Assembly: GCF_020921035.1 (NCBI RefSeq)
Contig: NC_063157.1
Span: 20,477,015 to 20,541,014 of the forward strand
Direction of reading: 5' to 3'
Source: Rhodamnia argentea
Taxonomy: Eukaryota; Streptophyta; Magnoliopsida; Myrtales; Myrtaceae
DNA length: 64,000 nucleotides
The notes below the pieces were generated by a model. It worked only from the letters and a program-made list of their open reading frames with translations. It was not told where the DNA came from and did no database searches. The translations under genes were made by a program, and so were the position numbers. Within the stretch, counting starts at the first letter, position 1. Every line of letters begins with the position of its first letter. Shown here piece after piece: positions 33,350 to 64,000 of this stretch.

Positions 33350-34140
33350 TAAAAGGAAGGGATAGAGAAATCTCAAGTTAAAAACTAAGAGGATGGGGAA
33401 GTTCGGACGTATTGCTTTCTCTTCTCTTTTCTATTGTTTTTGAAAAAAAATATATGAAGAAATAAAGATAGAACAGACCCACAAGATTGTTTTAAAAATA
33501 TGAAGAAAGAACACAGCCACAAGTCACAATAAGATTTTTATTTTTGGTAGCTCGCAATTTTTCGGTTTTGTGACCTAGGTTTTTCTTTCAATAGTTTGGA
33601 GAGAAGTGACTTTGTTAGATAAAATAAAAAGGTTGTTGCTAGTTTTGTTGTGAAGCTTGTTACATATTTATCATATTTGTTTGTTATTCCAAAACTGTTC
33701 ATGGGATTACTTTCGTTGATTGAGTCTAATCTAATTTTGATTATATGACATTATTACTTTAGCACGACATGTGGATTTCAAGGATCTTCGAATTGGTCGG
33801 TTGATTGTCCATCCAAGATATGTTCATGTCCTCAAGGGAAATTATGCACGATAAAAAAAAGTGCGAAAGAATTCTACTAAACGAGGAAGATTATATTATG
33901 CCTCAACTTGTAATGTAAGCGCAAAAGTTTCGTATATTGATGTAATACTTGATATTGTTGTACACTAAATTTTTGTCCAGACAGTTTTGTACAATGGGTT
34001 GAAACTATATCGAGGAATGTAGGATCTATTCACCTAAAAATGTGGACATAGTCAATTCTAGAGAGGCACCAAGCGAAAATGAAAAATTGGCAATCATAAA
34101 AGGAGATGTGAAGTAAATTATAAGAACAATAGGCTTCATT
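33350..34140 (+). repeat. Left copy of array-end block A
   Basis: Closely matches 50755-51600 in the same orientation, sharing AAAACTAAGAGGATGGGG, GAACAGACCCAC, TGGTTGATTGTCCATCC-type text and ATGTGGACATAGTCAATTC. Here block A runs directly into array repeat sequence at about 34160. It contains possible exon remnants (CPSKICSCPQGKLC, then an intron-like gap and QWVE...) that I cannot assign to a family; a GRF-type zinc finger is a weak possibility. Confidence 0.8.
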
Positions 34141-34710
34141 ATGTCAATAATAATGTTATGTGATCAAACAAAACATTTTCATCCGATCTCCGATTAACTC
34201 AATTTTTGCACCAATGGAAGATCAGTAATCCAATTATTTCAAAATGGTCGTAATATTTTCCACGATAGCAATCCGTTTGTCATTATTTGAAAAAATTAAC
34301 TTAGATGATTAGTGCATCAAACATTTCTCTTTTTAAGAGCAAATTTTCGGTGCATCAAACATTTCTCTTTCTACGAGCAAATTTTTGGTGCATCAAACAT
34401 TTCAAACATGAGTATCAATTAATCACATTTGCATCGTAGTCTATTTTTACTTTGATATTGTCAATTTCATGAGCTTCTACAATCAAGAAAAACCCAAATT
34501 CAATTACAAGAACAAAGATACAAGAAAATCCAGGGTAAGAACCGCAAGAAATTAAAAATAACATGCAATAATACCAAAAAAAAAAAAAACCTCCAGGGAA
34601 GTAGAACAGCTAAATTCACATCCACTTGTGAATCTTGAAAAAAGAAATTAGTTTTAAAGAGGTAGAAAATTTAGAAGAAGGTGTAGAAGATAAATTGGCC
34701 TTATAGTACT

Positions 34711-35023
34711 ATGAGTTCTTCCCGGATGAAAGGAAAGCTTCTTGTCGGGGATATACCGATTGTCAATGTTGCGTATTTGACATGATCCTTTGCGTTTAGA
34801 CTTGAAAAGTTAAGCGCCAATCAACGGCAATCAATAATGAGGACAGGGTTTGGTAACCTATTGGTAATACCAAACCACAATGTCAGCAAGACTCTTAACT
34901 GAATTGTTTGATAAATGGAGCTGCAAGAGGCATGCCCTCCAACTTGATAATTATGAAATTTCCATGACGCCCATGGACGTTGCTTTGGTCCTGGGCCTTT
35001 GTGTCGTTGAGAACAAAACATAA
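34711..35023 (+). pseudogene. Plant mobile domain (PMD, MAIL1/MAIN-like) fragment, left copy
   Basis: Reads MSSSRMKGK..., then FAFRLEKLSANQRQSIMRTG, FGNLLVIPNHNVS and, after a frame change, TELFDKW and NYEISMTPMDVALVLGL. This is the pattern of the PMD domain found in MAIN/MAIL1 and in several plant transposons. It is broken by an in-frame TGA (where the right copy has TGG) and by a 2-bp loss just after NVSKTL. It ends at TAA 35021-35023, far short of a full domain. It lies between array repeats, at the point where the longer monomers lack about 0.7 kb. Confidence 0.6.
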
Positions 35024-35559
35024 AATTTTTCTTTCTTCTCCGTAACCGAGCATGAAATCTATATTTCCATAATGAATGTCCACGCATATTCAATTTTTCG
35101 ACATTCCTTTAACCAAGTGAACTTTATTTATTTATTTTAGCAATTCAATTTTTTGCTTTGGGCTATAACTCGAGACATATTCTAACAAAGTATAACAATT
35201 GAGAAAGAAACAACATAATACCATCTTGGTAACCGTCTTGTCCAATATCACAAAAATAACAGAAATCATTATATGTTAATAAGATTTTGTTTATTTCAAG
35301 AACTAAAAGGCAATGTTAGAGTGTTCTGCCGAATACGTCCATTGTTCTCGGGTGATGGTCTCGGAAGTGATATATCTTTTACTTGACATCAATAGGAACT
35401 ATTGGTCGACGCATTGAATTACTTCAAAGCAGTGAAAAATAACTCTTGCGAGTTAGAGAAATTCTTACCAACATCATGTTTTTTTAAGAACCAAATACGG
35501 CTTCATGTTGTTTATTCATGATATTTCTAGTTTCCTTAGCCCGATCTGAAGCACAATCT

Positions 35560-38500
35560 AAGTGTCTCATGTCTATTCACTTTTGGAATAGTAGTAAAAA
35601 CGAATACATTTGAATTTGAGAAAGTCTTCATGCACAAGGCTTCCAAGCATGAGGTTTTTGTTGAGATATTAAAACTGGTTCAGAGTGTGCTTGATGGCTA
35701 CAAGGTGATATTTGTGCAGTGTTTTCTTTGATTATGCGAGGGTAGAATTGAATTGCTAGATGTTATAAGGAGGTGATCAAATGGATGGTTGATTGCTTTT
35801 TTTTTTTTCCCTATGTTCGTGTATTTTTCTTTTTATCGAGAAATCAAAACATTTAAAGAGAAGTGCATTTATCTTCCAATACAAGGGTTCTATTGAATTT
35901 GACTAAACTTTGATCAAACAAAACCTTTTCATCCGACCTTCGATTAACTCAATTTTTGCACCAATGGAAGACCGGTAGTGCAATTGTTTCAAAATGGTCA
36001 CAATATTTCCCTCAATAGCAATCCGTTTCCCATGATTGGATATAATTAACTTAGATGATTAGTACATCAAACATTTCTCTTTCTATGAACAAATTTTCGT
36101 GCATCAAACATTTCAAACATGAGTATCAATCAATATCATTTACATCATAGTCTATTTTTTCTTTTATGTTGTCAATTTCATGAGCTTCTATAATCAAGAA
36201 AACTCCAAATTCAATTACAACAATAAATATAAAAGAAAATCCAGTGGAAGAACCACAAGAAATGAAAAATAACATGCAATAATACAAAAAAAAAATTTGT
36301 GGGAAGTAGAACGGCTAAGTTCACATCCACTTTGAATCTCGGAAAAATAAATTAGTTTTAAAGAGGCAAAATATTTAGAAGAAGGTGTAAATCTACGCAT
36401 TGAACAACTTCAAAGCGGTAAAAAATACATCTTGGGAGTTAGAGAAATTCTTGCCGACAACATATTCTTTTAAGAACTAAATATAGTTTCATGTTGTTTA
36501 TTCAAGATACTTCTAGTTTCCTTAGCCTGACCTAAAGCACAATCTAAGTGTCTTATGTCTATTCATTTTAGGAATAGTAGTAAAAAAGAATACATTCGAA
36601 TTTGACAAAATCTTCAAGCACGAGGCTTCCCAGCATAAGGTTTTTGTTGAGATATCAAAACTGGTTCAGAGTGCACTTGATGGCTACAAGGTGATATTTG
36701 CATGGTATTTTCTATGATTATGCAGGGGTAGAATTGAATTACTAGATGTTATGAGGAGGTGATCAAATAGATGGATTATTGTTTTTTTTTTTTTTTCTAT
36801 GTTCGTTTGTTTTTCTTTCTATCGAGAATCAAAACATTTAAAGAGAAGTGCATTTATCTTCCAATACACGGGTTCTATCAAATTTGGCTAAACTTTGATC
36901 AAACAAAAGCTTTTCATGCAATCTCCGATTAACTCGATTTTTGTACCCAGTAGTCCAATTGTTTCAAAATGGTCACAATATTTTCCTCGATAGCAATACT
37001 TTTGCCGTAATTGGATATAATTAATTTAGATAATTAGTGCATCAAACATTTCTCTTTTTATGATAAAATTTTCGGTGCATCAAACATGAGTATCAATCAA
37101 TCTCATTTAATTCATAGTCTATTTTTGTTTTAACGTTGTCAATTTCATGAGCTTCTATAATTGAGAAAAGCCAAATTCAATTACAAGAACAAAGATAAAA
37201 GAAAATCTAGTGGAAGAACCACAATAAATTAAAAATAACATGCAATACTACCAAAAAAAAAAAAAACTCGAGGGAAGTAGAATAACGAAGTTCACATTCA
37301 CTTGTAAATCTTGAAAAGGGAAATTAGTTTTACAGAGATAGAAGATTTAGAAGAAGGTATAAATCTACGCATTGAATTACTTCAAAGCGGTAAAAAATAC
37401 ATCTTGCAAGTTAGAGAAATTTTTGCTAACCGCACGTTCTTTTAAGAACCAAATACACCTTCATGTTGTTTATTCATGATAGTTCTAGTTTCCTTAGTTT
37501 GACTCGAAGCACAATCTAAGTGTCTCATGTCTATTCATTTAAGGAAGAGCAGTAAAAAAAATTACATTCGAATTTGAAAAAATCTTCAAGTACGAGGCTT
37601 CCCAAGACGAGACAATTGTTTAGATATCAAAACCGGTTCAGAGTGCGTTTGATGACTACAATGTGATATTTGCACGGTGTTTTTTATGATTATGTGGGGG
37701 TAGAATTGAACTGCTAGATGTTATGAGGAGGTGATCAAATGGATGGATTATTGGTTTCTTTTTTCTATGTTCGTTCATTTTTCTTTCTAACAAGAAATCA
37801 AAACATTTAAAGAGAAATGCATTTATCTTCCAATACACGGATCCTATCGAATTTGGCTAAACTTTGATCAGATAAAACCTTTTCATCCGATCTTCAATTA
37901 ACTTGATTTTTGCACTCATGGAAGACCGGTAATCCAATTGTTTCAAAATGGTCACAATATTTTCCTCGATAACAATCCTTTTGCCGTAATTGGATAGAAT
38001 TAAATTAGATAATTAGTGCATCAAACATTTCTCTTTCTATGATAAAATTTTCGGTGCATCAAACATTTCAAACATGAGTATCAATCAATCTCATTTACAT
38101 CATAGTCTATTTTCGCTTTAACGTTGTCAATTTCATGAGCTTCTACAATTGAGAAAACGCAAATTCAATTACAAGAACAAAGATAAACGAAAGTCTAGTG
38201 GAAGAACCATAAGAAATTAAAAATAACATGCAATAATACCAAAAAAAATTGAGGGAAGTAGAACAACTAAGTACACATTCAATTGTGAATCTCGAAAAGG
38301 GAAATTAGTTTTAAAGAAGTAGGAGATTTAGAAGAAGGTAAAAATCTACGCAGTGAATTACTTCAAAGCAGTAAAAAATACATCTTGCGAGTTAAAGAAA
38401 TTTTTGCCAACTGCACGTTTTTTTAAGAACCAAATAGACCTTCAAGTTGTTTATTAACGATATTTCTAGTTTCCTTAGCCTAACCTAAAGCACAATCTAA

Positions 38501-38620
38501 GTGACTCATGTCTATTCATTTTAGAGCCAAATACACCTTCATATTGTTTATTCATGATATTTCTAGTTTCCTTAGCCCGACTTGAAGCACAATCTAAGTG
38601 TCTCATGTCTATTCATTTTA
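35560..38620 (+). repeat. Left flank of the array: long (about 1 kb) monomers
   Basis: Kinesin-exon copies 1-3 and the spacer leading to copy 4, at spacings of 986, 970 and 1079 bp. Compared with the core, each long monomer carries about 600 bp extra between the ATTAACT...GATTTT text and the next exon, including GCATCAAACATTTC, AATAACATGCAATAATACC and CTTCATGTTGTTTATTC. An internal duplication of about 110 bp at 38420-38625 explains the longest spacing. Confidence 0.85.
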
Positions 38621-41600
38621 GGAATAGTAGTAAAAAAGCATACATTCGAATTTGACAAAGTCTTCATGCACGAGGCTTCCTTGCATGAGATTTTTGTTAA
38701 GATATCAAAATTGGTTCAGAGTGCGCTTGATTACTATAAGGTGATATTTGCACAGAGTTTTCTATGATTATCCGGGGGTAGAATTGAACTGCTAGATGTT
38801 ATGAGGAGTTGATCAAATGGATGAATTATTGTTTTTTTTTTTTTTCCTATGTTCGTTTATTTTTCTTTCTATCGAGGAATCAAAACATTTAAAGAGTTAT
38901 GCATTTATCTTCCAATACATGGGTTCTATTGAATTTGGCTAAACTTTGATCAAACAAAACATTTTCATCCGATCTTCGATTAACTTGATTTTAGGAACAA
39001 TAGTAAAAAAACAAACATTCGAATTTGATAAAGTCTTCATGCACGAGGCTTCCCGGAATGAGGTTTTTGTTGAGATATCAAAAGCTGGTTCGAGTGCGCA
39101 TGATGGCTACAAGGTGATATTTGCGCAGATTTTTCCATGATTATCCCGGAGTAGAATTGAACTGATAGATGTTATGAGGAGGTGATCAATGGATGGATTA
39201 TTGTTTTTTTTTTTTCCTATGTTCGTTTGTTTTTCTTTCTATCGATGAATCAAAACATTTAAAGAGTAATGCATTTATCTTCCAATACATGGGTTCTATC
39301 GAATTTGGCTAAACTTTGATCAAACAAAACATTTTCATCCGATCTCCGATTAATTTGATTTTAGGAATAGTAGTAAAAAAGCATACATTCGAATTTGACA
39401 AAGTCTTCATGCATAAGGTTTTTGTTGAGACATCAAAACTGGTTCAGAGTGTACTTGATGGCTACAAGGTGATATGTGCACAGTGTTTTATATAATTATG
39501 CGGGGGTAGAATTGAAATACTAGATGTTATGAGGAGGTGATCAAATGGATGGATTATTATTTTTTTTTCCTATGTTCGTTTGTTTTTCTTTCTATCGATG
39601 AATCAAAACATTTAAAGAGTGATGCATTTATCTTCCAATACATCGGTTCTATCAAATTTGGCTAAACTTTGATCAAACAAAATATTTTCATCCGATCTTC
39701 GATTAACTTGATTTTAAGAATAGTAGTAAAAAAACATACATTCGAATTTGACAAAGTCTTCATGCACGAGGCTTCTCGGCAAGAGGTTTTTATTGAGATA
39801 TCAAAACGGGTGCAGAGTGCGCTTGATGGCTACAAGGTGATATTTGCGCAGTGTTTTATATAATTATGCGGGGGTAGAATTGAACTGCTAGAAGTTATGA
39901 TGAGGTGATCAAATGGATGGATTATTGTTTTCTTATTTTTCCTATGTTCGTTTGTTTTTCTTTCTATCGAGGAATCAAAATATTTAAAGAGTAATGCATT
40001 TATCTTCCAAAACACGGGTTCTATCGAATATGGCTAAACTTTGATCAAACAAAACATTTTCATCTGATCTCCGATTAACTTGATTTTAGGAACAGTAGTA
40101 AAAAAACATACATTCGAATTTGATAAAGGCTTCATGCACGAGGCTTCCCAGCATGAGGTTTTTGTTGAGATATCAAAACTGGTTCGGAGTGCGCTTGACG
40201 ACTACAAGGTGATATTTGCGTAGTGCTTTCTATGATTATCCGGGGGCAGAATTTAACCGTTAGATGTTATGAGGAGGTGATCAATGGATGGATTATTGTT
40301 TTTTTTTTTTCTATGTTCGTTTGTTTTTCTTTCTATCGAGGAATCAAAACATTTAAAGAGTAATGCATTTATCTTCCAATACATGGGTTCTATCCAATTT
40401 AGCTAAACTTTGGTCAAACAAGATGAAAATATTTTTATCCGATCTACGATTAACTTGATTTGAGGAACAATAGTAAAAAAGCATACATTCGAATTTGACA
40501 AAGTCTTCATGCACGAGGCTTCCTAGTATGAGGTGTTTGTTGAGATATCAAAACTGGTTCAGAGTACGCTTGATGGCTACAAGGTGATATTTGCACAATG
40601 TTTTATATAATTATGCATGGGTAGAATTGAACTGTTAGATGCTATGAGGAGGTGATCAAATTGATGGATTCTTATTTTTTTTTCTATATTTGTTTGTTTT
40701 TCTTTCTATCAAAGAATCAAAACATTTAAAGAGTAATACATTTATCTTCCAATACATGGGTTCTATCGAATATTACTAAACTTTGATCAAATAAAACATT
40801 TTCATCCGATCTCCGATTAACTTGATTTTAGGAATAGTAATAAAAAAACATACATTCGAATTTGACAAAATCTTCATGCACGGGGCTTCCTAGCATGAGG
40901 TTTTTGTTAAGATATCAAAACTAGTTCAGAGTGCGCTTGATGGCTACAAGGTGATATTTGCGCAGTGTTTTTTATGATTATGTGGGGGTAGAATTGAATT
41001 GCTAAATGTTATGAGGAGGTGATCAAATGGATAGATTATTGTTTTCTTTTTTTTTCCTATGTTGGTTTGTTTTTCTTTCTAACGAGAAATGAAAACATTT
41101 AAAGAGTAATGCATTTATCTTCCAATACATGGGTTCTATCGAATTTGGCTAAACTTCGATAAAACAAAACATTTTTATCCAATTGCCGATTAATTTGATT
41201 TTAGGAACAGTAGTAAAAAAACATACATTCGAATTTGACAAAGACTTCATGCACGAGGCTTCCCAGCACGAGATTTTTGTTAAGATATCAAAACTGGTTC
41301 AGAGTGCGCTTGATTACTATATAGTGATATTTGCGAAGAGTTTTCTATGATTATCCGGGGGTAGAATTGAAATGCTAGATGTTATGAGGAGCTGATCAAA
41401 TGTATGGATTATTGTTGTCTTTTTTTTCCTATGTTCGTTTGTTTTTCTTTCTACCGAGGAATCAAAACATTTAAAGAGTAATGCATTTATCTTCCAATAC
41501 ATGAGTTCTATCGAATTTGGCTAAACTTTGATCAAACAAAACATTTTCATCCGATCTCCGATTAACTTGATTTTAAGAATAGTAGTAAAAATGCGTACAT

Positions 41601-44600
41601 TCGAATTTGACAAAGTCTTCATGAATAAGGCTTTCCAGCATTAGGTTTTTGTTGAGACGTCAAAACGGGTTCAGAGTGCGCTTGATGGCTATAAGGTGAT
41701 ATGTGCGCAGTGTTTTATATAATTATGCGGGGGTAGAATTGAAATGCTAGATGTTATGAGGAGGTAATCAAATGGATGGATTATTGTATTTTTTTTTCCT
41801 ATGTTCGTTTGTTTTTCTTTCTATCGATGAATCAAAACATTTAAAGAGTAATGCATTTATCTTCTAATACATGGGTTCTATCGAATTTGGCTAAACTTTG
41901 ATCAAACAAAACATTTTTATCCGATCTTCGATTAACTTGATTTTAAGAATAGTAGTAAAAAAACATACATTCGAATTTGACAAAGTCTTCATGCACGACC
42001 CTTCCCAACATGAAGTTTTTGTTGAGATATTAAAACTGGTATAGAGTGCGCTTGATGGCTACAAGGTGATATTTGCCTAATGTTTTCTATGATTATACGG
42101 GGGTAGAAATGAACTGCTAGATGTTATGAGGAGGTGATCAAATGGATGGATTATTGTTTTCTTTTTTTTCCTTTGTCCGTATGTTTTTCTTTCTAACGAG
42201 GAATCAAAACATTTAAAGAGTAATGCATTTATCTTACAATACATGGGTTCTATCGAATTTCGCTAAATTTTGATCAATGAAAATATTTTCATTCGATCTC
42301 CGATGAACTTGATTTTAGGAACAATAGAAAAAAAAAGCATACATTCCAATTTGACAAAGTTTTCATGCACGAGGCTTCCCAGCATGAGGTTTTTGTTGAG
42401 ATATCAAAATTGGTTTAAAGTGCGCTTGATGGCTACAAGGTGATATTTGCGCAATGTTTTCTATGATTATGCGGGGGTAGAATTGAACTGCTAGATGTTA
42501 TGAGGAGGTGATCAAATGGCTGGATTGTTGTTTTCCTTTTTTTCTAATGTTCGTTTGTTTTTCTTTTTATCGAGGAATCAAAACATTTAAAGAATAATAC
42601 ATTTATCTTCCAATACATGGGTTCTATCGAATATGGCTAAACTTTGATCAAACAAAACATTTTCATCGGATCTCCGATCAACTTGATTTTAGGAACAGTA
42701 GTAAGAAAGCATACAATCGAATTTGATAAAGTCTTCATGCACGAGGCTTCCCAACATGAGGTTTTTGTTGAGTTATCAAAACTGGTTCAAAGTGCGATTG
42801 ATTGCTACAAGATGATATTTATGAAATGTTTTCCATGATTATACGTGGGTAGAATTGAACTGCTAGATGTTATGAGGAAGTGATCAAATGGATGGATTAT
42901 TATTTTCTTTTTTTTCCAATGTTCGTTTGTTTTTCTTTCTATCGAGGAATCAAAACATTTAAAGAGTAATGCATTTATCTTTTAATACATGGGTTCTATC
43001 GAATTTGGCTAAACTTTGACCGGACAAAATATTTTTATCCGATCTCCGATTAACATGATTTTAGGAACAGTAGTAAAAAAACATAGATTCGAATTTGACA
43101 AAGTCTTCATGCACGAGCCTTCCTAGCATGAGGTTTTTGTTGGGATATCAAAACTAGTTCAGAGTGCGCTTGATGGCTACAATGTGATATTTTCGCAGTG
43201 TTTTATATAATTACACGGGGTAGAATTGAACTATTAGATGTTATGAGGAGGTGATCAAATGGATGGATTCTTATTTTTTTTCCTATATGGTTTGTTTTTC
43301 TTTCTATGAAGGAATCAAAACATTTAAAAAGTAATGCATTTATCTTCCAATACATGGGTTCTATTGAATATGGCCAAACTTTGATCAAAGAAAACAATTT
43401 CATCCGATCTTCGAATAACTTGATTTTAGGAATAGTAGTAAAAAAATATACATTCGAATTTGACAAAATCTTCATGCACGAGGCTTCCCAGCATGAGGTT
43501 ATTGTTAAGATATCAAAATTGATTCAGAGTGCGGTTGATGGCTACAAGGTGATATGTGCGCAGTGTTTTCTATGATTATTCGGGGGTAGAATTGAACTGT
43601 TAGATGTTGTGAGGGGGTGATCAAGTGGATGGATTATTTTTTTCTTTTTTTTCCTATGCTCATTTATTTTTCTTTCTATCGAGGAATCAAAACATTTAAA
43701 GAGTAATGCATTTATCTTCAAATACATCGGTTCTCTCGAATTTGGCTAAACTTCGATCAAACAAAACATTTTCATCCCATCTCCAATTAACTTGATTTTA
43801 GGAGCAGCAGTAAAAAAGCATACATTCGAATTTGACAAAGTTTTCATGCACGATGCTTCCTTGCATGAGATTTTTGTTAAGATATCAAAATTGGTTTAGA
43901 GTGCGCTTGATTACTATAAGGTGATATTTGCACAGAGTTTTCTATGATTATCCTGGGGTAGAATTGAACTGCTAGATGTTATGAGGAATTGATCAAATGG
44001 ATGTATTATTGTTTTTTTTTTTTCCTATGTTCGTTTATTTTTCTTTCTATCGAGGAATCAAAACATTTAAAGAGTTATGCATTTATCTTCCAATACATGG
44101 GTTCTATTGAATTTGGCTAAACTTTGATCAAACAAAACATTCTCATCCGACCTCCGATTAACTTGATTTTAGTAAAAGTAGTAAAAAAATATACATTCGA
44201 ATTTGACAAAGTCTTCATGCAAGAGGCTTCCCAGCATGAGGTTTTTGTTGAGATATCAAAACTGGTTCAGAGTCAACTTGATGGCTACAAGGTGATATGT
44301 GCGGACTATTTTATATAATTATGCGGGGGTAGAATTGAACTGCTAGATGTTATGAGGAGGTGATCAAATGGATGGATTATTGTTTTTTTTTTCTTATGTT
44401 CATTTGTTTTTCTTTCTATCGATGAATCAAAACATTGAATCAGTAATGCATTTATCTTCCAATATATCGGTTCTATCGAATTTGGCTAAACTTTGATCAA
44501 ACAAAACATTTTCATCCGATCTTCGATTAACTTGATTTTAAGAATAGTAGTAAAAAAGTATACATTCGAATTTGACAAAGTCTTTATGCACGAGGCTTCC

Positions 44601-46550
44601 CAGCATGAGGTTTTTATTGAGATATCAAAACCGGTTCAGAGTGCACTTGATGGCTACAAGGTGATATTTGCGCAGTGTTTTATATAATTATTCGGGGGTA
44701 GAATTGAACGGCTAGATGTTATGAGGAGGTGGTCAAATGGATGGATTATTGTTTTCCTTTTTTTTCCTATGTTCGTTTGTTTTTCTTTCTATCGAGGAAT
44801 CAAAACATTTAAAGAGTAATGCATTTATCTTCCAAAACACAAGTTCTATCGAATATGGCTAAACTTTGATCAGAGAAAATATTTTCATCTGATCTTCGAT
44901 TAATTTGATTTTAGGAACAATAGTAAAAAAACATACATTCGAATTTGATAAAGTTTTCATGCACGAGGCTTCCCAGCATGAGGTTTTTGTTGAGATATCA
45001 AAACTGGTTCAGAGTGCGCTTGATGGCTACAAGGTGATATTTGCGCAGATTTTTCCATGATTATCTCGGGGTAGAATTGAACTGCTAGATGTTATGAGGA
45101 GGTGATCAATGGATGGATTATTGTTTTCTTTTTTTTTTCCTATGTTTGTTTGTTTTTCTTTCTATGGAGGAATGAAAACTTTTAAAGAGTAATGCATTTA
45201 TCTTCCAATATATGGGTTCTATCGAATTTGGCTAAACTTTGATCAAACAAGATGAAAATATTTTCATCCGATCTCCAATTAACTTGATTTTAGAAACAGT
45301 TGTAAAAAAGCATAGATTTGAATTTGACAAAGTCTTCATGAACGAGGCTTCCTAGTATGAGGTTTTTGTTGGGATATCAAAACCGGTTCAGAGTGCGCTT
45401 GATGGTTACAATGTGATATTTGCATAGTGTTTTTTATAATTATGCGGGGGTAGAATTGAACTGTTAGATGTTATGGGGAGGTGATCAAATGGATGGATTC
45501 TTATGTTTTTTTTCTATATTCGTTTGTTTTTCTTTCTATCAAGGAATCAAAATATTTAAAGAGTAATGCATTTATTTTCCAATACATGGGTTCTATCGAA
45601 TATTGCTAAAATTTGATCAAATAAAACATTTTCATCCGATCTCCGATTAACTTGATTTTAGGAACAGTAGTAAAAAAGCATACATTCGAATTTGACAAAG
45701 TCTTCATGCACGAAGCTTCCCAGCATGAAGTTTTTGTTGAGATATCAAAACTAGTTTAGAGTGCGCTTGATGGCTACAAGGTGATATTTGCGCAGTGTTT
45801 TCTATGATTATGCGGGGGTAGAATTGAACTGCTAGATGTTATGATGAGGTGATCAAATGGATGGATTATTGTTTTTTTTTTCCTATGTTCGTTTGTTTTT
45901 CTTTCTATCGATGAATCAAAACATTGACTGAGTAATGCATTTATCTTCCAATACTTCGGTTCTATCGAATTTGGCTAAACTTTGATCAAACAAAACATTT
46001 TCATTCGATCTTCGATTAACTTGATTTTAAGAATAGTAGTAAAAAAGCATACATTCGAATTTGACAAAGTCTTCATGCACGAGGCTTCCCAACATGAGGT
46101 TTTTGTTGAGATATCAAAACTGGTTCAGAGTGCGCTTGATGGCTACAAGGTGATATTTGCGTAGTGTTTTCTATGATTATGCGGGGATAGAATTGAACTG
46201 CTAGATGTTATGAGGAGGTGATCGAATGGATGGATTATTATTTTCGTTTTTTTTTTCCTATGTTCTTTTGTTTTTCTTTCTATCGAGGAATCATAATATT
46301 TAAAGAGTAATGCATATATCTTCCAATACATGGGTTCTATCGAATTTGGCTAAACTTTGATCAAACAAAATGTTTTCATCCGATCTCTAATTAACTTGAT
46401 TTTAGGAACAGTAGTAAAAAAACATACATTTGAATTTGACATAGTCTTCATGTATGAGGCTTCCCAACATGAGGTTTCTGTTGAGATATCAAAACTGGTT
46501 CAGAGTGCGCTTGATGGCTACAAGGTGATATTTGTATTGTGTTTTCTATG
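38620..46550 (+). repeat. Array core: about 22 monomers of about 370 bp with seven-monomer higher-order structure
   Basis: Copies 4-25. Each monomer has the exon, then GGTAGAATTGAACTGCTAGA, ATGTTATGAGGAGGTGATC, a T-rich run, CTATGTTCGTTTG, AATGCATTTATCTTCC and TTTGGCTAAACTTTGATC. Diagnostic variants recur every 6-7 monomers. GATTACTAT occurs in copies 4, 11 and 18. GATATGTGC followed by TTTTATATAATTATGCGG occurs in 6, 12 and 19. A TCC-TAG nonsense plus GGATTCTTAT spacer occurs in 9, 16 and 22. An AGATGAAAATATTTT insertion occurs before 9 and 22. This indicates a roughly 2.6-kb higher-order unit present about three times. Confidence 0.85.
44915..45033 (+). pseudogene. Kinesin-14 motor-domain exon, representative consensus-like copy (copy 21)
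   Basis: A 119-bp segment with a TTTTAG acceptor before it and an AAG/GTGATA donor after it. In the open frame it gives a 39-residue stretch that includes [36 protein letters not shown]. This matches the part of the kinesin-14 (KATA/ATK) motor just before the ATP-binding P-loop (GQTGSGKT), which is absent here. The preserved splice sites mean the source was genomic DNA, not a retrocopy. It is one of about 28 copies. Many others have in-frame stops (for example copies 9, 10, 13, 14, 16, 18, 22 and 23) or a TTTTAA acceptor (7, 12, 13, 20 and 24). No other kinesin exon is found in the window, so no kinesin can be made. Confidence 0.85.
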
Positions 46551-49500
46551 ATTATGCGATGGTAGAATTGAAGCGCTCGATATTATGAGGAGGTGATCAA
46601 ATGGATGGATTGTTATTTTCTTTTTTTTTCTATGTCCGTCTGTTTTTCTTTTTATCTAGGAATCAAAACATTTAAAGAGTAATGCTTTTATCTTCCAATA
46701 CACGGGTTCTATTGAATTTGGCTAAACTTTGATCAAGCAAAACATTTTCGCCCGACCTCCGATTAACTTGAATTTTGCGCCCATGTAAGATCGGTAATCC
46801 AATTATTTCGATATATTCACAATATTTTCCTTGATAGCAATCCTTTTGTTGTAATTGGATATAATTAAATTAGATGATTAGTGCATCAAACATTTCTCTT
46901 TCTACGATAAAATTTTCGGTGCATCAAACATTTCAAACATGAGTATCAATCAATCTCATTTACATCGTAGTCTATTTTTGCTTTGACGTTGTCAATTTCA
47001 TGAGCTTCTACAATTGAGAAAACCGAAATTCAATTACAAGAACAAAGATAAATGAAAATCTAGGGGAAGAACCACAAGAAATGAAAAATAACATGCAATA
47101 ATACCCCACAAAAAAACACTCGTGGGAAGTAGAACAGCTATGTTCACATTCACTTGTGAATCTCAAAAAGGGAAATTAGTTTAAAGAGGTAGAAAATTTA
47201 GAAGAAGGTGTAAATCTACACATTGAATTGCTTCAAAACGGTAAAAAGTACATCTTGCGAGTTAGAGAAATTTTTGCCAATTGCATGTTCTTTTAAGAAT
47301 CATACGGACCTTCATGTTGTTTATTCATGATATTTCTAGTTTCCTTAGCCCGACCTAAAGCACAATCTAAGTGTCTCATGTCTATTTATTTTAGGAACAA
47401 TAGTAAAAAAGAATACATTTGAATTTGACAAAGTCTTCATGCACGAGGCTTCCCAGCATGAGGTTTTTGTTGATATATCAGAATTGGTTCAGAGTGCGCT
47501 TGATGGCTACAATGTGATATTTGCACGGCATTTTCTTTGATTATGCGGCGTCCAATTAAACTGCTAGATGTTATGAGGAGGTGATCAAATGGATGATTTA
47601 TTGTTTTTTTTTTCTATGTTCATGTGTTTTTCTTTCTATCGAGGAATGAAAATATTTAAAGGGAAATGCATTTATCTTTCAATACACAGGTTCTATCGAA
47701 TTTAGTTAAACTTTGATCAAACAAAACCTTTTCATCTGATCTCCGATTGACTTGATTTTTGCACCAACGGAAGACCAGTAATCCAATTGTTTCAAAATGG
47801 CTACAATATTTTTCTTGATAGCATTCCATTTTCCGTGATTGGGTATAATTAACTTAGATGATTAGTGCAATAAACATTTCTCTTTATGCGAGCAAATTTT
47901 CAGTGCATCAAATATTTCAAACATGAGTATCAAATAATCTCATTTAAATCATAGTCTATTTTTTCTTTGACATTGTCAATTTCATGAGTTTCTACAATTG
48001 AGAAAACCCCAAATTCAATTACTAAAACAAAGATACAAGAAAATCCAGGGGAAGAACCACAATAAATTAAAAATAACATGCAATAATACAAAAAAAAAAA
48101 AAAAACTCAAAGGAAGTATAATAGCTAAGTTCACATCCACTTGTGAATCTTAGAAAGAAAAATTAATTTTAAAGAGGTAAAGATTTAGAAGAATGTGTAA
48201 ATCTACGAATTGAATTTCTTCAAAGCGATGAAAAATACTCCTTGTGACTTTGGGAAATTCTTGCCAATAGCATGTTCTTTTAAGAACCAAAAAGAGTTTC
48301 ATGTTGTTTATTCATGATATTTGTAGTTGCTTCAGTTTGACTTGAAGCACAATCTAAGTGTCTCATGTCTATTCATTTTAGGAATAGTAGTAAAAAAGAA
48401 TACATTCGAATTTGGCAAAGTCTTCATGCACGAGGCGTCCGAGCATGACGTTTTTATTGAAATACCATAAGTGGTTCAGAGTGCGCTTGATGGTTACAAG
48501 GTGATATTTTCACGGTATTTCCTTTGATTATGCGGGGTAGAGTTGAACTGCTAGATATTATGAGGAGGTGATCAATTGGATGGTTTATTGTTTTTCTTTT
48601 TATTTCTATGTTCCTGTGTTTTTCTTTCTATCTAGAAATCAAAACATTTAAAGAGAAATTCATTTATCTTCTAATACACGGGTTCTATCGAATTTGGCTA
48701 AACTTTGATAATGGTCACAATATTTTCCTCGATAGCCATCCGTTTGCCGTGATTGGATATAATTAACTTAGATGATTAGTGCATCAAATATTTCTCTTTC
48801 TACGTGCAAATTTTCAGTGCATCAAACATTTCAAACAAGAGTATCAATCAATCACATTTACGCCATCTTCTATTTTTTCTTTGACATTATCAATTTCATG
48901 AGCTTCTACAATCGAGAAAACCACAAATTCAATTACAAGAACAAAGATACAAGAAAATGCAGTGGAAGAACCGTAATAAATTAAAAATAACATGCAATAA
49001 TATGGAAAAAAAACCTCGAGAGAAGTAGAACAGCTAAGTTCACATCCACTTGCGAATCTCAGAAAGGGAAATTAATTTAAAGAGGTAGAAGATTTAGTAG
49101 AAGGTGTAAATCTACGCATTGAATTACTTCAAAACAATAAAAAAATACCTATTGCGAGTTAGAGAAATTCTTGCCAACAGTATGTTCTTTTAAGAGAAAA
49201 ATAGTGCTTCATCTTGTTTATTCATGTTATTTCTAGTTTCCTTGGCCTGACTTGAAGCACAATCTAAGTGTCTCATGTCTATGCATTTTTGAAACAGTAG
49301 TAAAAGCCTTTCGAATTTGACAAAGTCTTCACGCACGAGGCTTCTCAGCATGAGGTTTTGTTTGAGATATCAAAACCGGTTCAGAGTGCGCTTGATGGGT
49401 ACAAGATGATATTTGCGCGGTATTTTCTTTGATTATGCAGGGGTAGAATTGAACTACAAGATGTTATGAGGAGGTAATCAAATGGATGGTTTATTGTTTT

Positions 49501-49890
49501 CTTGTTTTTTCTATGTTAGTGTGTTTTTATTTCTATCGAAGAATCAAAATATTTAAAGAGAAATGCATTTATCTTCCAATACACGGATTCTATTGAATTT
49601 GGCAAAACTTTGATCAAACAAAACCTTTTCATCGGATCTTCGATTAACTCGATTTTTGCACCAACGGAATACCGATAATCCAATTGTTTCAAAGTGATCA
49701 CAATATTTTCCTTGATAGCAATCCATTTTATGTACTTGGATATAATTAACTTAGATAATTAGTGCATTAAACATTTCTCTTTCTATGAGCAAATTTTCGG
49801 TGCATCAAACATTTAAAACATGGGTATCAATGAATCTCATTTACATCATAGTTTATTTTTGCTTTGACATTGTCAATTTTATGAGCTTAT
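46551..49890 (+). repeat. Right flank of the array: long monomers
   Basis: Copies 26-28, at spacings of 990, 991 and 904 bp, again with the roughly 600-bp extra spacer seen on the left flank. Copy 28 (near 49313) has lost part of the exon start (GTAAAAGCCTTTCGAATTTG). These edge monomers differ more from one another than the core monomers do. Confidence 0.85.
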
Positions 49891-50123
49891 ACAATGGAGA
49901 AAACCCCAAATTCAATTACAAGAACAAAGATACAAGAAATCCAGTGGAAGAACCACAAGAACTTAAAAATAACATGCAATAATACCAAAAAAAAACAAAA
50001 AAAACCCAGGAAAGTAGAACAGCTAAATTTACATCCACTTGCGAATCTCGAAAAGATAAAGTAGTTTTGAAGAGGTAGAAGATTCAAAAGAAGGTGTAGA
50101 AGATAAATTGGCTTTATAGTGCT

Positions 50124-50440
50124 ATGAGTTCTTCCCAAAGGAAAGGAAAGCTTCCTGTGAAGGATATGCCGACCATCAATGTCGCACATTCAACGTGGTC
50201 CTTTGCTCTTAGACTTGAAAAGTTTAGCGCTAGTCAACGGTAGTCTATAATGAGGACAAGGTTTGGTAACTTGCTGGTAATACCAACTCACTATTTCAGC
50301 AAGACTCTCTTAACTGAATTGCTAGATTAAATAGAGCTCCGAGAGGCATGCCTTCCAACTTGATAATTATGATATTTCCATGACTTCCATGGACGTCGCT
50401 TTGGTCCTGGGGCTTCGCGTCGTTGGGAACAAAACATGAC
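50124..50440 (+). pseudogene. Plant mobile domain (PMD) fragment, right copy
   Basis: Same segment as 34711-35023: MSSSQRKGK..., STWSFALRLEKFSASQR, FGNLLVIPTHYFSKTLLTELLD and SMDVALVLGL in a second frame. Unlike the left copy it keeps TGG (W) and the reading frame through SKTLLTEL. It has its own lesions: a TAG after SASQR, a TAA after LLD and a later frame shift. The two copies therefore decayed independently. It runs directly into block A. Confidence 0.6.
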
Positions 50441-50754
50441 CTTTTCTTTCTTCTCCATAACCGAACATGAAATCTATATTTCCATAGTGGATGTCCACAT
50501 ATAATCAATTTTTAGACTTTCCTTTAAACAAGCGGACTTTATTTATTTATTTCCGCAATTCAGATTTTCGCTTCGGCCTCAAACTCGAGACATATTCTAA
50601 TAAAGTATAACAATGGAGAAAGAAACGACACAATACCATTTTGGTAACCGTCTTGTCCAATATCACAAAAATAACATATATCATTATATGCTAATAAGAT
50701 TTTGTTTATTTCAAGAACTAAAAGGCAATGTCAACTTTTCTTTTTAATATTTTG

Positions 50755-51600
50755 GTTCCAAAAGGAGGGGATAGAGAAATCTGAGGTTAAAAACTAAGAG
50801 GATGGGGAAAATCTAAAGTTCGGATGTATTGCTTTCTCTTCTCCTTTCTATTGTTTTTGAAAAAAAAAATGAAGAAATAAAGACAGAACAGACCCACGAA
50901 ATTGTTTTAAAAATCTGGAGAAAGAACATAGCCACAAGTAACGATAAGATTTTTTTTGTTGTTGTTGGTAGCTTGCAATTTTTTGGTTTGTGACTTAGTT
51001 TTTTTCTTTCAATAGCTTGCAGATAAGTGACTTTGTTAAATAAAATAAAAAGGTTGTTGCTAGTTTTGTTGTGAAGCTTGTTACATATTTATCACATTTA
51101 TTTGTTATTCTAAAATTGTTTATTGAATTATTTTCGTTGATTGAGTCTATTCTAATTTGATGATATGACATTATTATTTTAGCACGACATCTCGATTTCG
51201 AGAATCTTTGAATTGGTTGGTTGATTGTCCATCCAAGATATGTCCATGTCCTCAAGGGAAATTATGCACAATAAAAAAGAAGTGCAAAAGAATTCTATTA
51301 AACGAGGAAGATTATATTATGCCTCGACTTGCAATGTAAGTCCCAAAGTTTAGCATATTGTGCATGTAGTGACATGTTGTAATACTTGATATTGTTGTAC
51401 ACTAAATTTTTTTCCAAACAGGTTTGTGCAATGGGTTGAATATTATTATATCGAGGAAAGCAAGATCTATTCACCTAACAATGTGGACATAGTCAATTCT
51501 AGAGAGGCACCAAGCGAAAATGAAGAATTGGCAATCATAAAAGGAGATGTGAAGTAAATTAGAAGAAACATAGGCTTCATTATGTCAATAATAATATTAT
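50755..51600 (+). repeat. Right copy of array-end block A
   Basis: Direct repeat of 33350-34140. Here the order is PMD fragment, block A, unique sequence. On the left it is block A, array repeat, PMD fragment. This permuted order suggests the array grew from a larger tandem unit holding A, repeat and PMD. Confidence 0.8.
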
Positions 51601-52541
51601 ATGGACTCATCATATCTTTTCTTCTTGGAATTGTGATTTCTATATTACTATATCGGTAATTATGGGAGTCAATTTTGATGATTATGTAGAACTTGATCTA
51701 ATATGATTTTAAAGAAACTAGTATAATGAATTTTGTCTTTCTTGAGATGAATAAGCAGAGGTGATCGATGATTATTTGACATTGGCCCGTCTGGTTTCGA
51801 TTCCATTATCTAGTCGAATTGAACTCGAGTTTGAAATCGTTACTACATCGGGTTGACTCAATTTATTGCCCTATTACTACTATGCACAACAAGAAGAGGA
51901 CTTGATACAAAAGAGGGCCGAGCAAAGAAACGCATGACAAAGGAAGTTCACTAGCAATTAAAAGATGACTATACTCATAAGAATGGGATAGTGGCATCAG
52001 TACCACTTCTATCCGGCTGTAGTTATTTCTAATTGAAGGATGATGGAATATAGGGCATTCAAAAGGGAGTGCAAACAATAGACTCTTCCAAAAAGAAAGC
52101 AACATGTAAGCTCAATATTAGCAAAAATTGACATTGTCAAGTTGCTAGCAATTGGCAAGCTATTGGTTACAAGAGAAAGGCACCTATTAGCCAAAGAGGG
52201 AGTTGTGCTTCCGAAGCTTTCTGAAGCATGAAGATAAATAGTTGTTATCAATCTACTCTCTAACGGGAAAAATTGAGCATGGATCAAGTGTTATTTGCAG
52301 GAAGCTGCTACTATCAACTAAGAATTGTGCTTTTTGTTGATGTCATAAAACACCATTAACACCTACTGCTGTTGTCTTCATCTGATAAAAAAGGACGAAT
52401 TTCAAACTACAAGGATTAATCGAAACTACAAGATGAAAAGAATGGTGTACTTCCTCATATCATGCCATGTACAACTTATATACAACAAGACTAGAACCAC
52501 AAAAAGGAAAGGAAAGGAAAGGCTTTTCTCATATCATGCAC
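51601..52541. other. Intergenic between the array and the FAR1-like pseudogene
   Basis: No recognised gene. A plus-strand stretch at about 51890-52290 has coding-like text in several frames (for example ILAKIDIVKLLAIGKLL) but is broken by stops, and I cannot assign it. Confidence 0.4.
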
Positions 52542-54125
52542 CTAGTATGAGGTCCCTCCTGTGCACAAAGATTCCTTTGTCTTTTGCTTCTCATTAGCGC
52601 CTTTAAACCGAGTGTTTGGTACACCTTTTGGCCTTCTCTGAGGGGGATCAAGTATTTGAATTCCATAATTTTCTGCGTATTCATATTCATCATTTTCTAG
52701 CAAGAAACTAACATCATCTTTACATGCGAGAGATTACATTTTGTTCATGATACGAGAGCGAAGATGCAGCAAGGTTGTAGTAGCGATCTTTTCCGTAACA
52801 TCATGATTCGCACCGATGTTCATAACACCAAAAGCCAATTGTACCGTCCTCTTCAAGCGCAATGTTTTTGACTTTATCACATCAAGAGAGCTTTTTCCAA
52901 GATCATCACAATGACTACTTTGTTTTGCGGGTTTTCTCCATGTCTACAAGTATTGTGATGGAATGCTTGTAGCATTTGCAACATGTGTCGAGGATACATA
53001 ATCTATACCTGCACAACCATCCTTGCATTTTAAATAATTTGTAACTACATGTAATGGTAGAATTTGTTGGACAAACATGGCCAATATGCTTTCTTTGACA
53101 ATAAGTGTGCAATGGCCCATCATCTATGTTCAGACAAAGCATGCAATAACTCAGCCTGGAAATTCCTATAAATGACATGAGTGTAAACATGTGTAGAATG
53201 TTTCAATATTTCACTATCGCGGCTTTCCTCGAGCACACTCAATCTGATTAACAAATTCAGACAAAGTCATCTTCTCGGGGCAAGGATCTAGGGTTAGTGC
53301 CAATTTTTGGAAAATGTATCAAATATGTAGGGGGCGGTATGGTCTTACATGTAATATCTTGAAAGATGTTATTAGTGCTATCACTTCTTTGTGTGGATCT
53401 AATTCCCGCAGAAAAAATATCCTAGGCAAATGCAGGATTTCATTTATGACGCAGGCAATACATATTATTCCACCACTTGTTGTCCTCCAAGTTCCACTCA
53501 TGATACTCATATAAAAGTTTGTGCCAAAATTTATTTTCAAAGCCCGACTTTTCAAAAGATGTGCAATATGATGCGTAACATTTTTCCCCATATGCCATAA
53601 AAATAAACGATGATTATTGTTCGGAAGAATAGTTTTAATGGCATTTACCATTGCATGATCTTGATAATTAAAAATAGTCTTGGGTACTTTATTACCCATT
53701 GCCTCTAAAGGATTGAAATGCCCACACAAAAGAAGCAATAGTGTCATCCAATAGAAATGGACAATCAAATATAACATTTTTTCAATGATAATTCAAGCCA
53801 ACAAAAGGTGCACATGTCATATTGTATCTATTTGTGCATAAGTAGTATCAAATAAATTCCTCAACATCGCCAAAAGTTTCATAATCTAGCTTGGATACAT
53901 CATCAAACCAAAAAAGAATGGTCAGTCTTTGCTCCTTACCCAATTGAAATTTAAAGAAAAAAATACTTCCATTTGATTGTAAGCAATTAAAATGGTTAAT
54001 GAGAATTTGACAATCACCCGCACTAATCAAGTCTATCTCTTTGATTTTAAGTAATTTTGACAATCACGAAGCGTAAAGCCAACATTTTTCCTGTCTCCCG
54101 CTTCACCATTAAGGTAAGAACACAC
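52542..54125 (-). pseudogene. FAR1/FRS family (MULE transposase-derived) pseudogene
   Basis: Read on the minus strand from 54125, the pieces appear in family order. GDRKNVGFTLRDCQNYLKSK is the linker after the FAR1 DNA-binding region. Then come INHFNCLQ and LDYETFGDV, CPFLLDDTIASFVWAFQSF, NYQDHAMVNAIKTILPNNNH with LFLWHMGKNV (MULE transposase core), a Cys-rich SWIM-like remnant at 52915-53190, and a C-terminal DPPQRRPKGVPNTRFKGANE ending at TAG 52542-52544. The frame changes several times, for example a 2-bp loss between AFQSF and LEAMGNK, and the N-terminal DNA-binding part is missing. Intact relatives are light-signalling transcription factors or Mutator transposases. Confidence 0.75.
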
Positions 54126-54703: not shown

Positions 54704-56200
54704 ATGGGGATTGATGTAGAGGTGGTGGAGCATTGCGAGATCAGTCCAGCCACCGGAGAGTTGGAAGAGAGGGAGGTGGTGGAGGCGGCGGTGGTGGGGT
54801 TGAGCATGATGGACATCCCGTGGCTCTTCTTCTCTCCCACCCAACCCCTCTTCCTCTACCGCTACCCCCACTCTCTCTTCCACTTCACCTCCACCGCCCT
54901 CCCTCTCCTCAAGCTCTCCCTCTCCCGCTCCCTCCTCCTCTCCTTCCCTCTCTCCGCCCGCCTCCATCTCCACCCTTCCCCTCCCTTCCTCCTCTGCTCC
55001 TCCTCCCACACTGTCTCTCTCACTGTTGCCGTTGCCGCCGCCGCCGATGCCGATGCCGATGATGATGATGTCTTCGACCGTCTCTCCACCCACCACCCCA
55101 GAGACGCTTCCCTTTTCCACCCTCTTGTCCCTTCCTTGCCCGCCATTCCCATTTCCAATTCCTCCTCCAACGCCCCCGTCCCTCTCTTCGCCGCCCAAGT
55201 GACCGTCTTTCCCAACTCCGGCCTTTGCCTCGGCCTCGCCTGTCACCATGTCGTCGCCGACGCCCGTACCTTCAACCTCTTCCTCAAGGCCTGGGCCTCC
55301 CTCTCCCGCCAGCTTTCCTCTCCTGCTCCTCACCCATCGTCGCTCCGTGGCTTCTTCACCACGCCTCCCTACTACGACCGGACGGTCCTCAGGGATCCAC
55401 GCGGCCTCCTCCACAGATTCCTCTCCGAGTGGTGCGGCTCCAAATGGCAGTCCCCTTCTTCGTCAGACCATGGTACTGTCGGTACTCCCGACAGGGTCCG
55501 ATCCACTTTTGTTGTGGGCACCACTGAAATGGACGGCATCCGAGAATGGATCCTCTCTCGGTGCAACTCCGGAAATCTCTCCCGCCCACCCCATTTGTCT
55601 CCTTATGTTCTCACCTGTGCATTCCTTTGGGTCGTTTGGGTGAAAGCCCATTTCTCCCTTCAGGCCCACAACAATCCAAAACCCAATCTCTGCAGCCCGG
55701 TTTACTTCGGATTCATAGCGGGCGGCCTCACCCGCTTGGGCTATCCGGTACCCGCTTCTTACTTCGGCAACTGTGTTGGGTTCGGCCGGGTGGAGGCCAC
55801 AGCCCACGAGCTGGTGGGAGAAAATTGCATTGTGGTAGCAGCAAATGCGCTAGGGAGCACGGTCAAGAGGTTGGACAAGGACCTTTTCGCAGATGCGGAG
55901 CGTTGGATCTCAGATTGGAGGGCCTTCTCGGAGTCGGAACTCCACGTGACCATTGCCGGGTCGCCCAAAGTGGACCTGTATGACACGGATTTCGGGTGGG
56001 GGAGGCCTAGGAAGATAGAGGATATATCGATTGATAAGAGCAGAGCCATTTCTTTGCATGAGAGCAGAGATGGGGAAGGTGGGATAGAAGTGGGGGTAGC
56101 TCTACCCAAGCCCCAAATGGATGCCTTCACCTCTCTCTTCACAGCTGGTCTCAAGGTCATGATGATGAAGCAAACGGCGCTCCCAAATCCCAATCCATAG
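54704..56200 (+). CDS. BAHD acyltransferase, malonyltransferase-like
   Basis: Intronless gene, 498 aa. The ATG at 54704 (MGIDVEVVEHCEISPATGEL) is chosen over an upstream in-frame candidate within the GA repeat. The catalytic HXXXD motif is HHVVADA (His182, Asp186), and the structural DFGWG motif is at 429-433, so both BAHD signatures are intact and correctly spaced. Members transfer acyl groups from CoA thioesters to alcohols or amines in the cytosol. The layout and the GWGRPRK continuation resemble phenolic/anthocyanin glucoside malonyltransferases, so malonyl-CoA is the likely donor, but the acceptor cannot be told. A low-complexity Ala-Asp run (AAAADADADDDD) near residues 116-127 comes from a GCCGAT repeat. 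No frame damage is seen. Confidence 0.92.
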   Translation: MGIDVEVVEHCEISPATGELEEREVVEAAVVGLSMMDIPWLFFSPTQPLFLYRYPHSLFHFTSTALPLLKLSLSRSLLLSFPLSARLHLHPSPPFLLCSSSHTVSLTVAVAAAADADADDDDVFDRLSTHHPRDASLFHPLVPSLPAIPISNSSSNAPVPLFAAQVTVFPNSGLCLGLACHHVVADARTFNLFLKAWASLSRQLSSPAPHPSSLRGFFTTPPYYDRTVLRDPRGLLHRFLSEWCGSKWQSPSSSDHGTVGTPDRVRSTFVVGTTEMDGIREWILSRCNSGNLSRPPHLSPYVLTCAFLWVVWVKAHFSLQAHNNPKPNLCSPVYFGFIAGGLTRLGYPVPASYFGNCVGFGRVEATAHELVGENCIVVAANALGSTVKRLDKDLFADAERWISDWRAFSESELHVTIAGSPKVDLYDTDFGWGRPRKIEDISIDKSRAISLHESRDGEGGIEVGVALPKPQMDAFTSLFTAGLKVMMMKQTALPNPNP

Positions 56201-63291: not shown

Positions 63292-64000
63292 GGAAAAAAA
63301 TCCAAAAAAGGGCATCAAGTCCTCTTGTTTTTTCAAATAAGGGTCCAAAATAAACTATGTTTTAAATAAGGGCCCAAAGTGACATAGTACGTTTCAATTA
63401 AAGGCTCGAAGTGGTTCTAATGTATCAAAAAAGGGTTTGACTCGAATGGCGTTTTCGTCATTTCACATTTTAATTTTTTCATTCATTTTTTTATTTTTCC
63501 TGATTTAAAAAAAAAAAAAAGCCACGCACAGGCGGGAGGACCGCCCCTCCCACCTATGGCCTTGAGCCCACCACCGGTTGGGGGTCGACGGGCGCGGCGA
63601 AGGCCGGTTTGGTCGCCGGCCCTCGCCGAGGCATCGGCGACCCCACCAACCTTTGCCACCCCCGCCTATCGCCCTTCGGCAATGGGACGGTGGCCACGAG
63701 CTAGAGGGCCGCCCCTCCCGCCTGTGAACATCCACTTTCTCCTTCTTCTTTTTTTTGAGAAAACAGATAACAAAAAATATAATAAAAAATAAAAAAATTA
63801 AATAAGTAAAAAGACTAAAATGTGCTTAAATCAGGCCCTTTTTTGAGATTTTATGGTCATTTCAAGTCTTTATTTGAAACGATGTTCATTTGGAGCCTTA
63901 TTTGAGAAAACATGAGGATTTCGGGCCCTTTTTTGAAACCGTATTCACTTATGGCCCTTATTTGAGAAAACATGAGGACTCTGGGCCCTTTTTCGAAACG
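63292..64000. mobile_element. MULE-type element, left part (runs off the window)
   Basis: Starts GGAAAAAAATCCAAAAAAGG, then GCATCAAGTCC and AAATAAGGGTCCAAAAT, the same terminal family as the element at 6039-7998. After a GC-rich core (63530-63735), inverted counterparts of the terminal motifs appear from about 63825 (GGCCCTTTTTTGAG, GCCTTATTTGAGAAAACATG). These include a tandem subterminal repeat of about 61 bp (63894 onward). The right terminus lies beyond the window. The open frames inside are not recognisable genes. Confidence 0.7.

Follow-up and report, generated by a model that had tools for sequence, protein, structure and literature searches.

A kinesin-14C gene duplicate on contig C8 of Rhodamnia argentea that probably decayed into several exon-bearing satellite arrays

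A 64,000-nucleotide stretch of contig C8 of Rhodamnia argentea (hereafter the window; placed at C8:20477015-20541014 by a genome search of the 346.7-Mb assembly) contains a tandem array of kinesin-14 motor exons. We propose that a duplicate of a KIN-14C gene on C8 decayed and was broken up, and that its exon segments were separately amplified into several satellites. A probability of about 0.78 is given to this reading, slightly lowered by the limited coverage of C8 in the searches for the P-loop and N-terminal exons.

BLAST of the exon consensus against the window gave 28 copies of the motor exon, all on the plus strand, in agreement with the original prediction of about 28 same-strand repeats. 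The copies are arranged head to tail and show concerted similarity, as satellite DNA does. The inner part was found by TRF as 22.0 copies of a 372-bp unit with 87% matches, and the outer exon copies, three on each side of the inner block, are spaced by 905–1078 bp (Table 1). The exon had been described as a 119-bp segment bordered by TTTTAG. The motor exon is real, but the homologous exon of the intact gene on C3 is 113 bp long, and the 119-bp segment starts 6 bp too early; TTTTAG aligns with intron sequence in the C3 gene and sits on a deletion junction in the 372-bp units. A GT donor follows the exon in 26 of 28 copies when the copies are aligned. The arrays described here are about 10–15 kb in size and all lie on one contig, C8; satellite arrays are typically large, heterochromatic and present at several sites.

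Table 1. Positions of the kinesin-derived repeats and of the sequences around them (window coordinates unless marked C8 or L023).
Feature	Position	Strand	Remark
Block A, left copy	33351..34161	+	87.3% to 50760-51603
Left partial copy of spacer X	34161..34685	+	77-81% to three long units; also at C8 loci
Left block B: shared with C8:20.567-20.569 Mb, plant mobile domain-like, then intron-like DNA	34686..35195	+	
Kinesin-14C exon 3' end, QLRKK.HNTIL, then GTAACC	35196..35228	+	tblastn
Next kinesin-14C motor exon, single copy, decayed, ELKGNVRVFCRIRPLF...GRRIELLQS	35300..~35434 (end approximate)	+	tblastn
Array 1, entire tandem array	35406..50098	+	BLAST and self-comparison
28 motor-exon copies, kinesin-14C	35585..49416	+	113 bp in C3 gene
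Left long units of ~985 bp, each with exon tail, intron, exon, beginning of next intron and spacer X	35406..38611	+	
Spacer X of first long unit	35800..36389	+	long form seen on C8 only
Local duplication of 97-bp intron stretch	38422..38621	+	TRF
372-bp sub-array, 22.0 copies	38615..46776	+	~613-bp deletion at ATTTT; 13-monomer similarity peak
Right long units	46776..50098	+	self-comparison
Right block B', containing the end of one exon (HNTIL, 50611-50643) and the truncated start of another (ELKGNV, 50715-50732)	50096..50731	+	
Block A, right copy	50760..51603	+	self-comparison
Array 2, residues 674-733	C8:20733130-20734746 and 20735777-20743280	minus	period 552-555 bp
1573-bp repeat, 3.5 copies, residues 555-634	L023:3668-9130		

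The consensus peptide of the array matched the Pfam families PF16796 (3.2e-9) and PF00225 (4.3e-7, with a score just above the Pfam cut-off). Its best sequences in the PDB were kinesin-14s (KIFC1, Kar3, KIFC3 and Ncd), with kinesin-1 behind them. In a search of plant proteins, using as the query the exon pieces of the window, joined in places by a few residues taken from plant relatives, 1093 proteins were obtained at E<=0.001 among 1124 candidates, and the family-named proteins among the 120 matches listed were mostly plant KIN-14C or KIN-14N. By these matches and by tblastn the array exon is a KIN-14C exon, and the predicted kinesin-14 assignment was upheld in that the peptide hits kinesin-14s ahead of kinesin-1. 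Chance similarity to kinesin was ruled out by the Pfam, PDB and plant protein matches, which are far above chance. Tandem repeats are prone to mis-assembly, but that the array is an assembly artefact or a chance likeness is extremely improbable, as the inner copies differ from each other by about 11% and several separate repeats carry different exons.

The array exon is not the only kinesin sequence in the window. The 3' end of a KIN-14C exon and a single, decayed copy of the preceding motor exon adjoin the array on the left, and a second, truncated set of exon pieces was detected by tblastn on its right. The 3' tail of the preceding motor exon was found again at the junctions of the long units, which start inside this tail. 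As kinesin exon pieces flank the array, the array grew within a longer piece of the gene. The original prediction had stated that no other kinesin exon is present and that a single exon alone was involved, and neither statement survived, as more exon pieces lie on both sides of the array and different exons are carried by other repeats on C8. Descent of the satellite from just one internal exon of a working gene, which would agree with the single exon in each inner monomer, is therefore refuted as stated by the flanking exons of the same copy, the exon tail in the long units and the repeats of other exons, and this origin is highly improbable.

The P-loop exon gave no real match in the window (one chance match, E 0.19) or in the C8 loci L022-L025, L028 and L029, while the C3 locus was found as a positive control; no complete KIN-14C motor was thus seen in the window or these six loci. 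Among the 56 of 239 candidates scored in the genome search, neither an N-terminal kinesin exon nor an intact kinesin-14 gene was seen on C8. The missing P-loop exon (window and six loci) and N-terminal exon (56/239 candidates) weaken the case for a single whole ancestral gene on C8. They also bear on the idea that the cluster is a relic of a kinesin-14-based drive haplotype, comparable to maize Kindr. The Kindr copies on Ab10 are described as genes required for drive, each in a repeat of about 100 kb, within a tandem array of about 1 Mb (PMC7238635), and multi-copy kinesin-14 DNA on one chromosome, here together with satellite arrays, is common to both cases. However, Kindr copies are genes, whereas exon pieces with no P-loop were seen here, no intact kinesin was seen in these partial views of C8, and the copies drift neutrally as described below, so that such a relic would be a very improbable analogue.

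The search of the same genome for the donor gene, proposed with the original prediction, gave a KIN-14C gene on C3 as the nearest intact kinesin-14, with exons covering residues 1–802 (6072906-6078118 plus the first exon, minus strand). A paralog was found on C2 in the genome search. The monomer had 48 matches in the genome, i.e., 28 in the window array, 18 exon-less spacer pieces on C8 (including one in the left flank of the window), one on C5 and one in the C3 kinesin gene. Window positions 35188-35734 are colinear with the C3 gene through exons and introns (69% over 573 columns). Because this alignment runs through the introns too, it indicates that the kinesin DNA of the window is a genomic copy and not a processed one.

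In a comparison of 211 residues, the C8 pieces share 145–147 residues with C3, Corymbia and protein P0001, and 134–135 with four other dicot proteins, while C3 and Corymbia have 200 residues in common. At nine sites where C3 differs from both Corymbia and P0001, C8 agrees with these at five, with C3 at two and is otherwise at the other two. From this comparison the C8 copy is old, and its age is perhaps near that of the split from Corymbia, for which nine sites are few. The dN/dS values between the consensus and C3 for six exon pieces were 0.10, 0.39, 0.50, 0.34, 0.38 and 0.48, where some pieces include a few flanking codons and the value of 0.10 rests on 35 codons. Values of 0.10–0.50 in all six pieces would follow from constraint on the C8 gene prior to its decay; those of 0.34–0.50 could reflect constraint on the C3 branch alone. 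The C-terminal peptides of the C8 type had no close relatives among 58 matches to proteins of limited length, the best being 50% identical. In the C8 copies of the exon for residues 573–634 aligned there (L022-L025), about 12 residues of C3 are absent, a shared old deletion.

Each long unit is a chimera that combines the exon tail, an intron, the exon and the beginning of the next intron with a spacer of about 590 bp, which we call spacer X. The predicted amplification of an exon plus intron was correct as far as genomic kinesin-14 DNA is in tandem, but spacer X, which belongs to C8, makes up over half of the long unit. In a genome search that skips very common words, spacer X was present in long form only on C8, at 20.51–20.75 and 21.98–21.99 Mb, and outside C8 the query matched only in short weak pieces of about 54–110 bp; spacer X as a widespread transposon is thus unsupported. 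Two pieces of spacer X lie head to head in opposite orientation at about position 9130 of L023 (C8:20749128), a possible hairpin. On the left of the array, block B (34701-34998) is 81% identical to positions 5529-5828 of L022, where the Pfam plant mobile domain (PMD) was matched weakly (E 0.0028 and 0.1); the domain had no match in the window itself. Block A occurs once on each side of the array, its two copies pointing the same way, and had no match in loci L021-L029. No convincing known domain was found in block A or spacer X at E 1 or better in Pfam; the plus frames of the left flank gave, besides the kinesin exon, two weak unrelated matches (E 0.013 left of block A and E 0.13 inside it), and the minus frames of spacer X had no Pfam match. 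About 2 kb to the right of the right copy of block A, broken pieces of a MULE transposase domain lie in two minus frames at about 53580-53835 (PF10551, with E values of 0.014 and 0.0059 that fall short of the Pfam cut-off).

These neighbours raise the possibility that a transposable element, Pack-MULE-like or plant-mobile-domain-like, captured the kinesin pieces, which it would have carried to C8 before their amplification there. The plant-mobile-domain-like stretch adjoining spacer X, the weak MULE pieces and the position of spacer X next to several different exons would fit such a carrier. However, no inverted self-match was found at E 1e-10 in 33–53 kb, so no long terminal inverted repeats of the Pack-MULE type are present there; the long form of spacer X was seen on C8 only, and the captured pieces found so far come from one gene and keep its introns. 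We regard this carrier as unlikely. The recurrence of spacer X beside several different exons is also not predicted by a plain decayed gene. Pack-MULEs and other gene-capturing transposons are described as carrying gene fragments (PMC8903248, PMC3310237). The sequences here resemble them in having gene fragments with introns and mobile-element-like pieces close by, and differ in that no long terminal inverted repeats were found and the fragments are tandemly amplified.

Other features were observed in the neighbourhood. An open acyltransferase-type ORF lies beside the array at window positions 54704-56200 (PF02458 on its database twin P0121). This gene is 82% identical to that of Syzygium oleosum over the entire length, and further matches were 73% in Corymbia (the best local match covering 13% of the query) and 72% over 74% in Eucalyptus grandis, in keeping with a plant of the Myrtaceae. 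Short tandem repeats were found by TRF at 58774-58862 (44 bp x 2.0) and 3245-3325 (27 bp x 3.0), each with 100% matches, and a 60-bp repeat at 63868-64000 reaches the end of the window.

The evolution of the copies was analysed in two arrays. In array 1, the divergence from the consensus was 7.2% in the exon and 6.5% outside it, and the exon copies carried 71 synonymous, 170 nonsynonymous and 14 stop changes, where 64.0, 181.7 and 12.4 would be expected in the absence of selection (the exon in this test was 7 bases longer than the C3 exon, and the nonsynonymous counts include stops). In array 2, the corresponding divergences were 6.9% and 7.1% (17 of 18 units aligned), with 55, 194 and 15 changes against 72.6, 214.3 and 14.3 expected, the synonymous changes being below expectation. 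When array 1 was read from the FEF codon, 17 of 28 copies were open and 11 had a stop, with upstream frameshifts not counted. Coding selection on the copies was ruled out, as exon and non-exon divergence are about equal and stops are as frequent as in the neutral expectation. The kinesin copies of arrays 1 and 2 drift neutrally, like the non-coding units of a satellite.

The origin of the short monomer can be read from its junction. The 372-bp unit is the long unit minus about 613 bp, and the junction lies on ATTTT, which is common to both ends; the 372-bp monomer arose from the ~985-bp unit via deletion at this microhomology. The outer long units are less alike than the inner units (0.858 versus 0.893). 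Among the 22 inner monomers, similarity peaked at a distance of 13 monomers (p 0.00035 in 20000 order shuffles; p 0.0047 over the 15 distances tested). Distance 14 was also raised (p 0.017), and the other 13 distances were not significant. A peak of this kind is the trace left when a block of monomers is copied.

Other kinesin exons from this lineage occur as tandem repeats elsewhere on C8, both within 0.25 Mb and at a distance of about 1.4 Mb. About 71 kb chosen by position and 20 monomer-matching loci were examined, and the copy numbers on C8 are lower bounds. In four C8 stretches chosen by their match to the spacer (L022-L025), exon copies for residues 573–634 (n=14), 674–709 (n=9), 709–733 (n=9) and 744–797 (n=3) were counted. 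For residues 573–634, the genome-wide search gave 19 match rows, of which one is in the C2 gene, one in the C3 gene and 17 on C8; the latter represent 15 copies, of which two are each split into two rows. Array 2 contains 18 exon copies in the 11 kb examined, with more matches down to 20731602. At least three different exon groups of one kinesin gene lineage have thus given rise to tandem repeats. Positions 6788-10000 of L022 and 3097-6294 of L024, in clusters 1.4 Mb apart, are 96.5% identical over 3.2 kb, a recent duplication, from which it follows that the region was rearranged recently.

The original prediction had further suggested that transcripts of the array could yield small RNAs matching functional kinesin-14 genes, and the arrays might then be kept for tuning these genes, in analogy to Su(Ste) and Stellate. 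The many diverged tandem copies of gene pieces and the head-to-head inversion at C8:20749128 would suit this idea, as would the 21-mers with one mismatch to C3 in the array-2 stretch (9/10980) and in L024 plus L025 (1/19980). On the other hand, none of the four stretches compared has an exact 21-mer, and exact siRNA matches to the C3 stretch are thus ruled out. The 14341 21-mers of array 1 included 0 exact, 0 one-mismatch and 40 two-mismatch matches to the C3 stretch, the longest exact match being 16 bp, in a comparison that covered part of C3 and part of C2. Since the C3 stretch compared contains no exact 21-mer of the array, siRNA control of the C3 KIN-14C by the array appears unlikely, and the suggestion is weakened. 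The Drosophila Su(Ste) repeats, which are described as making piRNAs, are about 90% identical to their target (PMC10567549); like the arrays here, they consist of diverged copies in tandem that are related to a gene for a protein, whereas the window DNA is about 69% identical to C3 over the colinear stretch and no near-identity to a target was found in the 21-mer comparison. Maintenance of the arrays by such a role would be very unlikely.

We favour the decay of a KIN-14C duplicate, which would have proceeded as follows. An old duplicate on C8, presumably a single ancestral gene, would have decayed and broken into segments interspersed with the local spacer X, which in this scenario adjoins a plant-mobile-domain-like stretch, and segments with different exons would each have been amplified separately into tandem arrays. 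For array 1, a piece of about 985 bp, running from an exon tail through an intron and the next exon into the intron after it and ending with spacer X, would first have been duplicated in tandem, probably by an illegitimate event. Loss of about 613 bp between two ATTTT sites would then have turned one long unit into the 372-bp monomer. The expansion of this monomer to 22 copies, in which a block of roughly 13 monomers was copied, would be explained most simply by unequal crossing-over. Unequal crossing-over after the first step would fit the tandem duplication, the deletion and the spread, and the copies of spacer X between exon modules may have acted as direct repeats aiding exchange. In a bolder version, which we consider rather improbable, a whole kinesin-14 locus on C8 was turned piecewise into satellite families with the spacers as direct repeats, and the cluster is possibly the relic of a multi-copy, possibly selfish haplotype. 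As far as the data show, the arrays would be inert satellite DNA, with no function indicated.

Tandem units that contain gene sequence are known from the human macrosatellites D4Z4 and RS447. Their units hold whole ORFs, whereas those described here hold single exons, exon pieces and introns. A tomato repeat related to the rDNA spacer is described as a plant satellite derived from a gene region (PMC2679016), so that genic-region DNA was turned into a tandem repeat in both cases; here, the source is a protein-coding gene of low copy number, complete with introns, and several of its exons gave separate repeats. The terminal exon of SEPTIN14 is reported to have undergone segmental dispersal in apes with a processed pseudogene (PMC13015009), i.e., the exon of one gene spread along with neighbouring repeat DNA, but it is dispersed in segmental duplications and the abstract describes no tandem satellite, while the array here is tandem. 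TE-derived satellites share with ours the tandem expansion of a part of a longer sequence, but the source here is a cellular gene; the legend of Figure 6 in a 2019 review (PMC6947457) calls the reverse of its process, from TE to satellite to coding sequence, unproved. In titles and abstract starts of the open-licence PMC papers listed, no report was found of a kinesin-derived satellite or of a satellite born from the exons of a protein gene.

The birth of satellites is usually inferred from finished arrays. Here, a single genome shows each stage: a nearest intact gene, the long unit, the deletion from which the short unit resulted, and a block duplication that came later. These stages, together with the at least three exon groups seeded by one lineage, make the direction from gene to satellite testable. 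Annotators should note that a kinesin domain match in this region of C8 is not necessarily a gene. The region seems to offer a clear view of how a gene becomes satellite DNA, with a broken copy of a cell-division motor gene in pieces and arrays that no longer code.
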